Origin: Bradyrhizobium sp. AZCC 1693
GTDB lineage: Bacteria; Pseudomonadota; Alphaproteobacteria; Rhizobiales; Xanthobacteraceae
Assembly: GCF_036924745.1 (NCBI RefSeq)
Contig: NZ_JAZHSD010000001.1
Span: forward strand, 4,278,001 to 4,342,000
Direction: 5' to 3'
DNA: 64,000 nucleotides
The notes below the pieces were generated by a model. The model was not told where the DNA came from and searched no databases. It saw only the letters and a list, made by a program, of their open reading frames with translations. This document shows positions 13,541 to 53,230 of the stretch, one piece after another. Positions within the stretch are counted from its first letter, which is position 1, and each line of letters opens with the position of its first letter. A program made the position numbers and the translations under genes.

Positions 13541-13633
13541 CGTCATGCCCGGCCTTGTGCCGGGCATCCACGTCTTTACGGTGCTGGTGACGGAAACAAA
13601 ACGTGGATGGCCGGGACAAGCCCGGCCATGACG
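13541..13633. repeat. Family A palindromic repeat, copy 1
   Basis: Two hairpins in inverted orientation. The left arm is ATGCCCGGC-CTTGT-GCCGGGCAT, the right arm is ATGGCCGGG-ACAAG-CCCGGCCAT, each bounded by CGTC and by ACGTGGAT or its complement. It fills the yidC-engB gap. Confidence 0.95.
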
Positions 13634-15814: not shown

Positions 15815-15903
15815 CGTCATGGCCGGGCTTGACCCGGCCATCCACGACTTGTTTGCCGTCCGCAAGAAAGACGTGGATGCCCGGGTCAAGCCCGGGCATG
15901 ACG
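15815..15903. repeat. Family A palindromic repeat, copy 2
   Basis: The left arm is ATGGCCGGG-CTTGA-CCCGGCCAT, the right arm ATGCCCGGG-TCAAG-CCCGGGCAT. It follows argB by about 20 bases and is read through by the open frame in front of the DUF1036 gene. Confidence 0.95.
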
Positions 15904-16959: not shown

Positions 16960-17100
16960 CGTCGTCCCTGCGAACGCAGGGACCCATAACCACAGGGCTG
17001 AACTGTGGCCACAGGTGTCAACCACGATGGAAGGCAACACACACCGTGCTTACCAACAACCTATACGGCGTATGGGTCCCCGCGTTCGCGGGGACGACCT
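16960..17100. repeat. Family B palindromic repeat, copy 1
   Basis: The left arm CGTCGTCCCTGCGAACGCAGGGACCC and the right arm GGGTCCCCGCGTTCGCGGGGACGAC enclose about 85 bases. Each arm is a hairpin and the two are inverted with respect to each other. Confidence 0.93.
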
Positions 17101-17813: not shown

Positions 17814-17925
17814 TCGTCGTCCCTGCGAACGCAGGGACCCATACGCCGCGGCGGTGGAAAAGGGCACCGTGGCCGACATCCCATTTAATCAATTCACGCC
17901 TGTGGTTATGGGTCCCTGCGTTCGC
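17814..17925. repeat. Family B palindromic repeat, copy 2, split by the IS4 insertion
   Basis: The left hairpin is intact and the right hairpin is cut in its loop at 17925. The missing half (AGGGACGACGG) resumes at 19420 after the insertion. Removing the insertion and one target copy restores a perfect family B arm. Confidence 0.93.
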
Positions 17926-21667: not shown

Positions 21668-21817
21668 CGTCATGGCCGGGCTGACCCGGCCATCCACGTC
21701 TTTGGCTTCTCGAACCGAGAAGCCGCCATCATGCCCGGCCTTGTGCCGGGCATCCACGTCCTTACTCGACGCAAGAAGAAAAGAACGTGGATGGCCGGGA
21801 CAAGCCCGGCCATGACG
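21668..21817. repeat. Family A palindromic repeat, copy 3, with three arms
   Basis: Three hairpins follow one another: ATGGCCGGG type, then ATGCCCGGC type, then ATGGCCGGG type inverted. The two kinds alternate. It separates the convergent genes dapE and truA. Confidence 0.95.
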
Positions 21818-23533: not shown

Positions 23534-23623
23534 CGTCATGGCCGGGCTTGTCCCGGCCATCCACGTCTTTGGCACAGTGGGAAAGGAAGACGTGGATGCC
23601 CGGCACAAGGCCGGGCATGACGG
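23534..23623. repeat. Family A palindromic repeat, copy 4
   Basis: The left arm is ATGGCCGGG-CTTGT-CCCGGCCAT, the right arm ATGCCCGGC-ACAAG-GCCGGGCAT. It lies between def and fmt. Confidence 0.95.
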
Positions 23624-25577: not shown

Positions 25578-25977
25578 ACTGTCATCGCCCGGCTTGACCG
25601 GGCGACCCAGTATCCCAGAGGCGGCAGATGGGAGCACGCAGCTACTACGTCTACATTCTCGCCAGCCGCTTCGGTGGCACGCTCTATATCGGCGTGACCA
25701 ATGATATTATCCGTCGCGTCGCCGAGCATAAGTTGAAAATTGCCGAGGGCTTCACCAAGCGTCACGACGTGAGCCGGCTCGTGTACTTTGAGATCTTCGA
25801 CCAGATCGAATATGCGATCCAGCGAGAAAAGCGGCTCAAGAATGGCCCCGCGCCTGGAAGATATCGCTGATCGAGAAACAAAATCCGGACTGGATTGATC
25901 TTTACCCTGAGATTGCCGGGGGCGGCGGATAGGTCTCTGGAATACTGGGTCGCCCGGTCAAGCCGGGCGATGACAGT
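25578..25977. mobile_element. Family C palindromic element carrying a GIY-YIG ORF
   Basis: Arms at 25578-25620 and 25935-25977 are inverted copies of 43 bp that differ at one base. Each arm also folds on itself (CGCCCGG-CTTGA-CCGGGCG). The space between them is filled by one small nuclease ORF, beginning seven bases after the left arm and ending two bases before the right arm. Other copies of the same arms in this window lack the ORF. Confidence 0.75.
25628..25932 (+). pseudogene. GIY-YIG single-domain endonuclease, frameshifted near its C terminus
   Basis: Small nuclease of the UPF0213/YhbQ-like type. The first 72 residues show YYVYILASR and TLYIGVTNDIIRRVAEHK, the GIY-YIG core with the conserved Arg, then YAIQREKRLK. 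At 25841-25843 the frame changes: the ORF stops at 25870, whereas the next frame reads WPRAWKISLIEKQNPDWIDL to a stop at 25932, which is the family C terminus. One missing base explains it. The intact protein would have about 100 residues. It sits exactly between inverted palindromic arms. Confidence 0.85.
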
Positions 25978-27409: not shown

Positions 27410-27513
27410 CGTCATCACCCGCGAAAGCGGGTGATCCAGTATTCCAGAGCAGTTGCGATAGGACTGAGAGAGCGCGGCGTACTGGATCGTTCGGTCAAGC
27501 CGGACGATGACGG
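27410..27513. repeat. Family C palindromic repeat, copy 2, without ORF
   Basis: The left arm TCATCACCCGC-GAAA-GCGGGTGATCC and the right arm GATCGTTCGG-TCAAG-CCGGACGATGA share the outer words with the GIY-YIG-bearing element (CCAGTATTCCAGAG, TACTGGATC). Only about 30 bases separate them. Confidence 0.85.
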
Positions 27514-31066: not shown

Positions 31067-31161
31067 CGTCATGGCCGGGCTTGACCCGGCCATCCACGTC
31101 TTGCTTCTTCCAATTCAGTGCAAAAAGACGTGGATGCCCGGGACAAGCCCGGGCATGACGG
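31067..31161. repeat. Family A palindromic repeat, copy 5
   Basis: The left arm is ATGGCCGGG-CTTGA-CCCGGCCAT, the right arm ATGCCCGGG-ACAAG-CCCGGGCAT. It lies between the SRP RNA and the HIT-family gene. Confidence 0.95.
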
Positions 31162-34232: not shown

Positions 34233-34353
34233 TGTCATCGCCCGCCTTGTGCGCAATTGCGCACTGGGGCGGGCGATCCAGTATTCCAGAGGCGCCAGAG
34301 ATAGAGCCGAGAAGCCGCGGCGTACTGGATCCCCGCTTTCGCGGGGATGACAG
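34233..34353. repeat. Family C palindromic repeat, copy 3, without ORF
   Basis: The left arm carries an extra hairpin in its loop (GTGCGCAATTGCGCAC between CGCCCGCC-type stems). The right arm is GGATCCCCGC-TTTC-GCGGGGATGAC. The words CCAGTATTCCAGAGGC and GCCGCGGCGTACTGGAT mark the family. Confidence 0.88.
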
Positions 34354-41990: not shown

Positions 41991-42079
41991 TGTCATCGCC
42001 CGGCTTGACCGGGCGACCCAGGGCGCCGGGCTCCCTCAGTTGAACACGGCCGCCTCGGCGTACTGGATCACCCGCTTTC
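41991..42079. repeat. Family C palindromic repeat, copy 4, split by the IS481-type insertion
   Basis: The left arm is CGCCCGG-CTTGA-CCGGGCG as in the nuclease-bearing element. The right arm CACCCGCTTTC ends at 42079 and resumes as GAAGGCGGGTGATGACGG at 43347, so the insertion cuts it at its dyad centre. Confidence 0.88.
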
Positions 42080-43346
42080 TGTTTAGTCCGGAGACATGGC
42101 TGACACCTGTTCGGACACATCACTGACAGGTTGGTCATTGGTCAAGTCGATCGATGCGACCTGCCAACTGGCAAAGAAGATACCGTAGTGGCCGTCGCGA
42201 TCGAGCGGGCGGATGGCAAGGCGCTCGCCGACGAAGGCTTTCGGAACTTTCCAGAACTGTCCCTTGAAAGAGATGTAGCTTCGGGTCGGCGAGACGGTCC
42301 GAACCGTCTCGCCGAGGTCGTATTGCACCTCCGGAATACGGGCCGGCATCGCACGTGAACTCGGCCGAAAGCGGTCGGCGGGGACGCTCATATCGAGGCC
42401 TTGGTGAGGCCGCTCCAGATTGTAGACCATGCGCCAGGCGTCGAGGGCGCGCTGGACCTCCGGCAGGGTGCGGAAGGGGCGCATGGCAAACACTTCGGCG
42501 TTGAGGGTGCGATGGAAGCGCTCGTTCTTGCCGCGGCCCTGCGGGTGGCACGGTCTGGCATGCACCACCCTGATGCCGAGCTTGAGCAGCCACACCTTCA
42601 GCCCGGTCCAGCGACCGCCGGACGTATCACCCCAAGGTGAGCCGTTATCGATATAGAAGGCCTCCGGCAGGCCATAGCGGCGGAACGTGGCCGTCAGATG
42701 CTCCTGCACCGTGGGACGCTGCTCGTTCTCACACGCCTTCAGGCACGGGACATAGCGCGAATGATCGTCGATCACCGTCAGCGGATGGCATCGCGTCCCG
42801 TTGGCGAGTGGCATGTGGCCCTTGAAGTCCATCTGCCACAACTGATTGGGAGCTTCCTTCTCGAAGCGATGGCCTGGATTGGGCGGCGCATTCTCGCTCG
42901 GCTTGATCCGGTCGTTCCGACACAGGATCCGATGCACGGTGGACGGCACTGGCACAGCCTGCCCATTGCGCTTCAGGCAATGGGCGATCTTGCGTGCTCC
43001 CCAAGCAGGATGCTTGTCGCGCACAGTTACGACCCGCGCCTCCACGGCAGCGGCGCTGCGCTTGGGCATCCGCTTCGGACGACGGGACTGATCCGAAAGC
43101 TCCCGATCGCCGGCCTGCCATCGCCTCAGCCATTTGTAGCCCACATCAGGACTGATCCCGAACCGCCGGCAGAGCTCCCGGCGGTTCGCTCCTTCCTGCA
43201 AGGCAAGTCGCACGAACTCGCGTCGCTGATCCATTACTGACACCTCGCTCCACGGCATGGACGGCTCCCGAATCGACCAATCCAGCCAATTTTGATGTGT
43301 CAGCTATGTCTCCGAACACCCGTCAGTGATCTGTCCGGGCTAAACA
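42080..43346. mobile_element. IS481-family insertion sequence, about 1,267 bp
   Basis: The ends are TGTTTAGTCCGGA at the left and, on the minus strand, TGTTTAGCCCGGA at the right. Further in, TGTTCGGA and CACTGAC words repeat near both ends. No obvious target duplication is seen: joining the flanks gives CACCCGCTTTC plus GAAGGCGGGTG, a near-perfect palindrome. One transposase gene spans the element. Confidence 0.9.
42083..43258 (-). CDS. IS481-family transposase
   Basis: DDE transposase of 391 residues. It begins MPWSEVSVMDQRREFVRLA with a helix-turn-helix (NRRELCRRFGISPDVGYKWLRRW) and the integrase core has WQMDFKG, the second Asp in FYIDNGSPWG and the Glu in PQGRGKNERFHRTL. The C terminus has the usual extra beta domain. 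The frame is intact, so the element may be active. The stop lies inside the left terminal repeat. Confidence 0.95.
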   Translation of the reverse strand: MPWSEVSVMDQRREFVRLALQEGANRRELCRRFGISPDVGYKWLRRWQAGDRELSDQSRRPKRMPKRSAAAVEARVVTVRDKHPAWGARKIAHCLKRNGQAVPVPSTVHRILCRNDRIKPSENAPPNPGHRFEKEAPNQLWQMDFKGHMPLANGTRCHPLTVIDDHSRYVPCLKACENEQRPTVQEHLTATFRRYGLPEAFYIDNGSPWGDTSGGRWTGLKVWLLKLGIRVVHARPCHPQGRGKNERFHRTLNAEVFAMRPFRTLPEVQRALDAWRMVYNLERPHQGLDMSVPADRFRPSSRAMPARIPEVQYDLGETVRTVSPTRSYISFKGQFWKVPKAFVGERLAIRPLDRDGHYGIFFASWQVASIDLTNDQPVSDVSEQVSAMSPD

Positions 43347-43442
43347 GAAGGCGGGTGATGACGGGTGATGACGGGTGTGTATTGGGCTCAAAATCCACCT
43401 CCCAAGGCTGTCAATCCGCGCAAAAATCCCTAAATTTCGGCC

Positions 43443-46500: not shown

Positions 46501-46627
46501 TGTCATCAACCGCGACCGGGCGATCCAGTATTCCAGAGCACGAAGTGTGAGGGGCAGCTCGTGCCGCATTGACTACGCTTCATCGGCTGGGCCGCGGCGT
46601 ACTGGGCGGATTCAACCGGTCGTCGCA
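46501..46627. repeat. Family C palindromic repeat, copy 5, degenerate
   Basis: The left arm TCATCAACCGCGACCGGGCGATCC followed by AGTATTCCAGAGC, and the right part GCCGCGGCGTACTGG, mark the family. Stems are imperfect. It abuts the LysE remnant and may have replaced the missing part of that gene. Confidence 0.75.
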
Positions 46628-48421: not shown

Positions 48422-48511
48422 CGTCATGCCCGGGCTTGTCCCGGGCATCCACGTCTTAGCGGTGCTGCGGCAGGAAGACGTGGATGGCCGGGTCAAGCCC
48501 GGCCATGACGG
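48422..48511. repeat. Family A palindromic repeat, copy 6
   Basis: The left arm is ATGCCCGGG-CTTGT-CCCGGGCAT, the right arm ATGGCCGGG-TCAAG-CCCGGCCAT. It lies between pyrE and the DUF2865 gene. Confidence 0.95.
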
Positions 48512-53106: not shown

Positions 53107-53230
53107 GTGGTCGTCCCTGCGAACGCAGGGACCCATAACCACAGGGAGTTGTTGTTTGCCGAAGGCGTCGACCAACACGCCTTATCGACAGATCACGCGG
53201 TATGGGTCCCTGCGTTCGCAGGGACGACGA
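53107..53230. repeat. Family B palindromic repeat, copy 3
   Basis: The left arm GTCGTCCCTGCGAACGCAGGGACCC and the right arm GGGTCCCTGCGTTCGCAGGGACGAC flank about 65 bases. It separates the convergent gst and fadJ-like genes. Confidence 0.93.

Follow-up and report, generated by a model that had tools for sequence, protein, structure and literature searches.

Which enzyme, if any, serves the repetitive extragenic palindromes (REPs) of the CGTC superfamily, which in the words of their describers "apparently lack a dedicated transposase" (Di Nocera et al., 2013, PMC3733652, cited throughout from its available sections), is the question raised by a locus of Bradyrhizobium sp. AZCC 1693. The locus lies in a stretch of 64,000 nucleotides (contig NZ_JAZHSD010000001.1, positions 4,278,001 to 4,342,000 of the forward strand), the whole of which is here called the window, and consists of a small GIY-YIG nuclease gene set between two inverted palindromic arms:

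25578..25620, plus strand: left arm, assigned to the CGTC superfamily of REPs, family A, with tag GTCAT, a 9-bp-type stem, a 5-nt loop and tail CCAGTAT
25628..25932, plus strand: frameshifted GIY-YIG gene of the REP-associated clade, first frame 25628-25870
25935..25977, minus strand: right arm, the left-arm REP inverted, with 42 of 43 bases equal

The locus is probably a decayed copy of a two-part system, made up of a small GIY-YIG nuclease and of hairpin REPs that would be its substrate, and the clade to which this nuclease belongs looks, from sequence comparison, like the strongest candidate for the enzyme partner that the CGTC REPs seemed to lack.

The two arms, of 43 nt each, are identical at 42 of 43 positions and enclose a spacer of 314 nt; both bear the tag TGTC, with 23 nt between GTC and CCA. 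The gene begins with an ATG at 25628, 7 bp past the left arm; its first frame ends at 25870, and its second frame terminates at 25930-25932 (placed by eye), 2 bp short of the right arm. This arrangement bears out the tight packing of an open reading frame (ORF) between arms with one mismatch described in a previous sequence-only reading of this DNA. With an intact relative as tblastn query the gene is recovered in two frames and is therefore frameshifted, again as that reading had it. The gene belongs to Pfam family PF01541 (E 2e-14). As a control for chance, an inverted repeat with a score of at least 15 was met at equivalent positions in 1 of 400 random window intervals, and a search for the 36-nt arm pattern that allowed 3 mismatches at most gave 2 matches in the window vs 0 in 100 shuffles. 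The genome, a single contig of 7.61 Mb, has five PF01541 matches, namely UvrC and four small genes, and all four small GIY-YIG genes found sit inside inverted arms belonging to four different REP families (arm matches: A 42/43, B 37/37, C 28/32, E 17/18). The ORF of the family B nuclease (L002:1438-1778) could start within its own REP arm, in which case the arm would encode the N-terminus MAGLVPAIHV.

From a biochemical perspective, the nucleases of this clade are proteins of about 95 amino acids. PF01541 was found in all 6 proteins scanned with Pfam, with no Y1 domain (PF01797), and no NCBIfam family scored above its cut-off for the 7 proteins scanned. An alignment of 36 relatives has invariant Y, G, R, H and E columns; Tyr, Arg, His and Glu are the hallmark of the GIY-YIG superfamily, the catalytic residues among them. 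The predicted structure (predicted local distance difference test 91.4) matches the domains of I-TevI and UvrC, and the modelled fold resembles that of Slx1, the structure-specific GIY-YIG nuclease of Slx1-Slx4. Among solved structures, BH0048 (PDB 1zg2, E 9.5e-11), a GIY-YIG protein of the UPF0213 type, is the best sequence match.

The sequence-only reading had suggested asking in relatives how often such an ORF lies between inverted copies. From 60 genomes of the genus, 94 loci (30 returned, 60 further ones among the matches listed and the 4 of the window genome) were sorted by hidden Markov model classes into 61 of this clade, 26 of a second GIY-YIG clade, 5 of a third and 2 unclassified. 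Inverted arms with a score of at least 14 are present at 54/61 loci of this clade vs 0/26 of the second one, which belongs to the same Pfam family, 4/5 of the third and 0/2 of the unclassified. The REPs of the 7 clade members without such arms are diverged, unequal or one-sided, and 61/61 carry REPs by either measure; since the REP pattern was devised after the first arms had been seen, these genus figures are not blind. A named genome collection was then scanned by peptide pattern alone, and the best 80 of at least 587 loci were kept, chosen by protein only and not by arms. By record titles, they span Alpha-, Beta-, Gamma- and Deltaproteobacteria, Nitrospirae, Planctomycetota, Chloroflexota, Calditrichota, Omnitrophota, candidate phyla and others, and single names may be wrong because many of these loci come from metagenome bins. 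Inverted arms were found at 46/80 of them, CGTC REPs on both sides at 64/80 and on at least one side at 77/80, and both arms are within 35 bp of the ORF at 25/80; when the intervals were shifted by 700 bases as a control, for the loci of all sets, REPs occurred on both sides in 2/408 and on at least one side in 56/408. The proposal of a relation like that of REPs and RAYTs (REP-associated tyrosine transposases), with a GIY-YIG nuclease in place of the Y1 enzyme, is thus strongly supported by the genus (54/61) and the named loci (64/80), and reaches wider than first claimed.

At phylum level, 174 of 299 Pseudomonadota genomes have a match to the clade profile at E ≤1e-3, and in 71 the match is under 1e-20, the threshold for a clear clade member. 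Of 70 loci fetched, two were repeats and were dropped; among the 68 read, 66 are clade members and 47/66 have inverted arms. Nine loci from a plasmid collection include 6 with inverted arms and 2 with REPs on both sides by scan. Among the matches listed, 7,997 of the 8,000 scored protein candidates match the clade at E 1e-10. Moreover, a record of Neisseria gonorrhoeae contains an unannotated clade member inside dRS3-type repeats; this record (L288, NZ_CP119142.1, 2.17 Mb) is filed as a plasmid and, judged by its size, is probably a chromosome. As for the third GIY-YIG clade (MTEGAWLYILRCADG; L046, L061, L065, L076), it is found amid another palindrome family (CCTCATCCTGAGGAG..CTCGAAGGATGAGG) and may have a pairing of its own.

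The arms themselves, with their GTC tag, stem-loop and CCA tail, are by these sequence features members of the known CGTC superfamily, one of the two REP superfamilies defined in the 2013 survey, the other being GTAG, whose enzyme is the RAYT (Di Nocera et al., 2013). The features of the superfamily set out by Di Nocera, De Gregorio and Rocco, i.e., the tag, a stem of 8-9 bp, a loop of 4-5 nt, the CCA tail and the head-to-head pairs, recur in the arms. The same survey lists CGTC-1 and CGTC-3 REPs for Bradyrhizobium, includes the Neisseria dRS3 in the superfamily, and suggests that CGTC REPtrons were lost early or that many kinds of transposase serve CGTC REPs; in its available sections no associated enzyme is reported, in contrast to the GIY-YIG enzyme proposed here (Di Nocera et al., 2013, PMC3733652). 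Among clade arms the length from GTC to CCA peaks at 20 (n = 138), 17 (n = 51) and 23 (n = 41), and 95% pairing was measured for the 20-nt class. The hairpin is the conserved feature of the arms: in 52 distinct 26-nt arms the stem pairs vary (GC, CG, TA and AT, for example, at one pair) and are paired in 95% of cells vs 69% with the halves re-dealt. In families E and F the stems of the arms are longer or unusual, so that these arms do not strictly fit the 8-9 bp stem and 4-5 nt loop. The tags point outward on both sides at 39/61 genus, 30/66 phylum, 50/80 named and 2/9 plasmid loci, and only inward on both sides at 0/61, 2/66, 2/80 and 0/9, respectively; in the window, hairpin and flank counts the GTC tag is present by construction, being built into the scan pattern. 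The core of Br-REP1 (CCGGAATCTCGAGATTCCGG), described with Br-REP2 in Bradyrhizobium japonicum (PMC5082802), lies inside family F arms, and the words "endonuclease" and "giy" are absent from the main text of that paper. In the open-access literature and a few subscription journals, preprints excluded, none of the papers listed joins a GIY-YIG nuclease with REPs in its title and abstract; by term search, "CGTC-tagged" occurs in PMC12306157 in the reference list only, and dRS3 and RAYT occur together, among the open-access papers searched, only in Di Nocera et al. (2013).

On the protein tree the arm families follow the protein clades without exception. The tree was built from 54 members (53 of the genus and one of a sister genus, L099) and 4 outgroup rows, and the arm families A, C, C', E, F and B, with the outgroup, require 6 changes on it, the minimum possible, vs 35.6 in shuffles, the family labels being assigned by the analyst from arm sequences. 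Some groups have low branch support (A 33, F 62) because the proteins are short. Families A, C and F are each found at two or more syntenic sites, so that the family match does not merely reflect a common location; on three contigs (G020, G037, G041) the second family A site is within a few kb of the first, which makes local duplication likely for A.

The sequence-only reading had further proposed the gene with its arms as a candidate mobile unit, and this part was not supported. The orthologous place of the unit lies between an rmuC-like gene and a gene of the MFS, and in the 28 readable loci of this site (30 fetched, window included) the gene is present in 23 and absent in 5, a presence that is over-represented because these loci are the best-scoring of 117 genomes. 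Through the C-terminal motif, 18 of the 23 genes are free of stops and 5 are interrupted, the window copy included. In G009, G040 and G389 the rmuC-like and MFS gene matches are 123-170 bp apart, too close to hold the nuclease unit. Genus clade loci fall into clusters syntenic on both flanks of 12, 12, 7, 7, 6, 5, 3 and 3 (two repeated loci dropped). The nuclease protein is under purifying selection: for those 47 of 136 pairs whose dS is <1.5, the median dN/dS (ratio of nonsynonymous to synonymous substitution rates) is 0.11. At the rmuC site, 14 of 28 loci have both family A arms by a strict pattern, and in these the identity is 95% and 88% for the arms, 73% for the ORF, and 28% and 56% for the flanks, the arm values being inflated because the strict pattern fixes part of the arm. 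In the same loci, left and right arms change in concert (five GTCGT with ACGAC and nine GTCAT with ATGAC, 14/14; L178-L197), which points to conversion between the arms or to joint selection.

Arms staying at orthologous sites without movement, the outcome that would have spoken against a mobile unit, were thus found in part for the gene and less for the REPs, where a single site carries different families from one species to another. Two intergenic sites, the rmuC site (L199, L201, L203) and the site before def (L187, L188, L195, L196), hold unrelated repeat families across species and look like turnover hot spots. Units are missing at 5/28 rmuC loci and at the syntenic sites of 4/8 Sphingobium plasmids, mostly with remnants or other repeats, and what remains after a loss is a fused palindrome, a half arm or another repeat. 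The fused palindromes (tag-stem-loop-stem-tag) replace the unit or pair of relatives in L204, L185 (a B pair) and the Sphingobium plasmids L298 and L297 (the last less clean), and are perfect in L204 and L298; they seem to be internal deletions, and slippage between half-stems would account for them. One REP pair close to the gene distinguishes the Rhizobium plasmids K1/93 and L51/94, and the ends fit recombination between two copies.

How such a system might work is suggested by the REPtron, formed by the RAYT (TnpA-REP, a Y1 enzyme of the HUH type) and the GTAG REPs or REPINs. Both have the gene of a small DNA-cutting enzyme (predicted in the present case) with inverted hairpin repeats on both sides, dispersed head-to-head pairs without ORF, an invariant unpaired tag next to a stem that varies, and an enzyme gene at fixed places, vertically inherited. 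They differ in the enzyme, here a GIY-YIG nuclease and not HUH/Y1, and in the GTC (CGTC) tag and CCA tail, not GTAG. From GIY-YIG chemistry no covalent phosphotyrosine intermediate is expected, unlike that of HUH/Y1 enzymes. Each nuclease sub-clade has its own REP family, with REPs of that family around its gene, tags usually outward, and further pairs of the family, devoid of an ORF, scattered through the genome. By analogy with RAYT and REPIN, the nuclease would most likely recognize the REP as a folded hairpin, in the single strand behind a fork or in an extruded cruciform, read the unpaired GTC tag and CCA tail, and cut beside the REP; the cut would let host repair copy REP pairs to new places, and the nuclease gene would stay in place, vertically inherited and lost now and then. 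REP binding, cutting and cut-driven spread are what we infer from this analogy. In the available sections of the respective papers, TnpA-REP cuts single-stranded REP hairpins with the assistance of the tag (PMC8266576), RAYTs are single-copy and vertically inherited, and Escherichia coli genomes with a RAYT hold more REPINs (Park et al., 2021, PMC8049555). The last trait, more repeats where the enzyme is present, is seen here for family C and not for family B.

A broader proposition is that CGTC REPs, dRS3 included, are replicating repeats driven by GIY-YIG nucleases of about 95 residues in many phyla, with hydrolytic hairpin cutting and host repair replacing a covalent transposase and each sub-clade reading its own REP family; we regard it as evenly poised between true and false. 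If it holds, it would explain why small genes annotated as "GIY-YIG nuclease family protein" are so common and so scattered, and domesticated REP replicators would have arisen twice, with unrelated enzymes. Naming a tiny nuclease as the candidate turns the open question of the missing CGTC enzyme into an oligonucleotide cleavage assay.

The REP copy numbers speak on both sides. Family C REPs number 0-175 per genome in the 60 genus genomes. With presence of the C nuclease defined as at least 80% identity over nearly the full length, the 23 genomes that have it (one with an internal stop) hold a median of 31 C REPs and never zero, the 4 with a remnant only a median of 43, and the 33 with none a median of 4, with 12 at zero (p 2e-6, uncorrected for kinship). 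The p value is 6e-5 when remnants and the stop-bearing copy are counted as none, and 4e-6 without G012, whose C gene has a stop. In G043 the only two family C matches are both just downstream of the nuclease gene, and C REPs are no higher with the B nuclease (4 vs 15, p 0.12). In the phylum, at least 5 copies of the tested REP pattern occur in 27/71 genomes with a clear member vs 16/228 without (p 2.5e-9, kinship uncorrected), and at least 50 copies in 3/71 vs 3/228 (p 0.15).

Several points weigh against the two-part system, the uncorrected kinship behind the family C comparison being one of them. Of the 33 genomes without the C nuclease, 11 still carry at least 10 C REPs, and family B REPs are present in 60/60 genomes in numbers independent of the B nuclease (median 30 in 15 genomes with it vs 25 in 45, p 0.22). 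The top REP count of the phylum, 657 in G147, goes with a fragmentary clade member only and four full-length Y1 copies; G095 (154 REPs) and G223 (109) have no clade member, and G203 and G306, of the 16 REP-holding genomes without a clear member, have neither enzyme. Eight of the 66 phylum loci are positive by neither the arm nor the REP measure, and flanks swapped between named loci still match at score 18 in 10/80 cases because arms of different genomes are alike. Neither a clean empty site nor a target duplication, such as a classical insertion sequence or MITE would leave, was found in the 28 rmuC loci, two neighbouring REP sites and the Sphingobium, Rhizobium and Shinella plasmids, and no cut, excision or insertion event was seen. 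Finally, a hydrolytic nuclease does not alone account for joining.

Three other explanations were considered. According to one, the arms are conserved hairpins that govern where transcripts end or how the nuclease gene is translated, and the other REPs are RNA-stability elements, so that nothing moves. The fixed position of gene and arms at one site in the relatives read would suit it, and transcription of REPs, with a possible role as RNA elements, is plausible (Di Nocera et al., 2013, PMC3733652); yet a terminator needs no outward tags on both sides, REP families are dispersed by the dozen, with 0-175 copies between species, and unrelated families occupy one site in different species, all of which leaves this explanation improbable. 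Equally doubtful is a host nuclease that cleaves REP hairpins or cruciforms against replication stalling, with the arms as its substrate or switch and not as mobile ends: the Slx1-like fold of the model, the purifying selection and the fused palindromes at places that lost a unit or pair are consistent with such a guardian role, but numerous genomes have REPs and no clear nuclease, and the C nuclease goes with more REPs, not fewer.

In the third explanation a RAYT or other Y1 enzyme moves the REPs, and the GIY-YIG gene is merely carried between two of them. GTAG REPs are indeed moved by RAYTs (PMC3733652, PMC8049555, PMC8266576, available sections), a Y1 match is present in 27/36 REP-bearing phylum genomes, including the REP-richest G147 with no clear clade member, and the stretch of one of 13 Y1 loci (L167, without a clear ORF) contains two CGTC REPs. 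On the other hand, 9 of those 36 genomes lack Y1, and among them G086 (182 REPs), G338 (31) and G185 (26) have the nuclease. No link of CGTC REPs to Y1 transposases exists in this genus: Y1 matches are absent from 26/60 genomes, the count of family C REPs does not depend on whether Y1 is present (12 vs 13.5, p 0.97), 11/13 Y1 loci have a clear ORF and 0/11 of these a CGTC REP within 350 bp, and 5 of the 11, that of the window genome included, have an inverted repeat of their own, of 17-25 bp. Available sections of the survey likewise report no tyrosine transposase gene flanked by CGTC REPs (Di Nocera et al., 2013, PMC3733652). A passenger gene, moreover, would not track the arm family clade by clade, and this explanation is held very unlikely for the genus on account of the Y1 counts, the independence of C REPs and the flanks of the Y1 loci. 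The Y1 genes of the genus (L306, L172-L175, window genome included) lie inside inverted repeats like ATTACGGTGACAGTGCACTTAA, unlike either REP superfamily, an arrangement termed TIRtron by Di Nocera et al. (2013).

The proposed two-part system of nuclease and REPs is accompanied in the window by many ORF-less REPs. The tag-hairpin-tail scan found 24 CGTC-type REP units of three families, vs 0-2 in 20 first-order Markov sequences; besides the two arms, they and their remnants are arranged as follows (strand given where assigned):

13542..13632: family B REP pair, tail CCACGTCTT; the B-armed nuclease is at G000:C1:6693736-6694065
15816..15902: family B REP pair, from the REP scan
16961..17098: family C REP pair (GTCGTCCCTGCG..CCCATA); the C-armed nuclease is at G000:C1:4649307-4649579
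17816..17841, plus strand: family C REP, from the REP scan
21669..21816: family B REPs, head to head, with an extra copy between, from the REP scan
23535..23621: family B REP pair, from the REP scan
27411..27511: head-to-head REP pair (REPIN-like) without ORF, family A tail CCAGTA, second unit at 27483
31068..31159: family B REP pair, from the REP scan
34234..34351: head-to-head REP pair, family A tail, second unit at 34326, left loop with an extra GTGCGCAATTGCGCAC palindrome
41992..42020, plus strand: left family A REP, its partner region interrupted by a transposase gene (42083-43258)
46501..46600 (end approximate): degenerate REP pair of family A, immediately downstream of polA
48423..48509: family B REP pair, from the REP scan
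53110..53228: family C REP pair, from the REP scan

Four of these, near 27410, 34233, 41991 and 46501, had been read as further copies with the same outer words that could be nuclease-less derivatives. The likeness stands for the pairs 27411/27483 and 34234/34326, which have the tag GTCAT and the tail CCAGTA of the nuclease arms with different stems, and the descent does not: their interior shares only about 15 bases with the nuclease unit, which rules out their descent from this copy by deletion and makes the two intact pairs relatives of the arms, the other two being a left REP with a transposase gene (41992) and a degenerate pair (46501). The site of the pair at 27411..27511 has a REP pair in most relatives read. 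At 41992-43380 a family A REP pair is broken by an apparent insertion element with a 391-aa transposase of the rve type (42083-43258, minus strand; type assigned by eye). REP loops also bear smaller inserted palindromes (GTGCGCAATTGCGCAC; TAGTAGTCTGC..GCAGACTACGT) at window positions 34234-34280 and in L036, L204 and L205, as if the loops were insertion targets.
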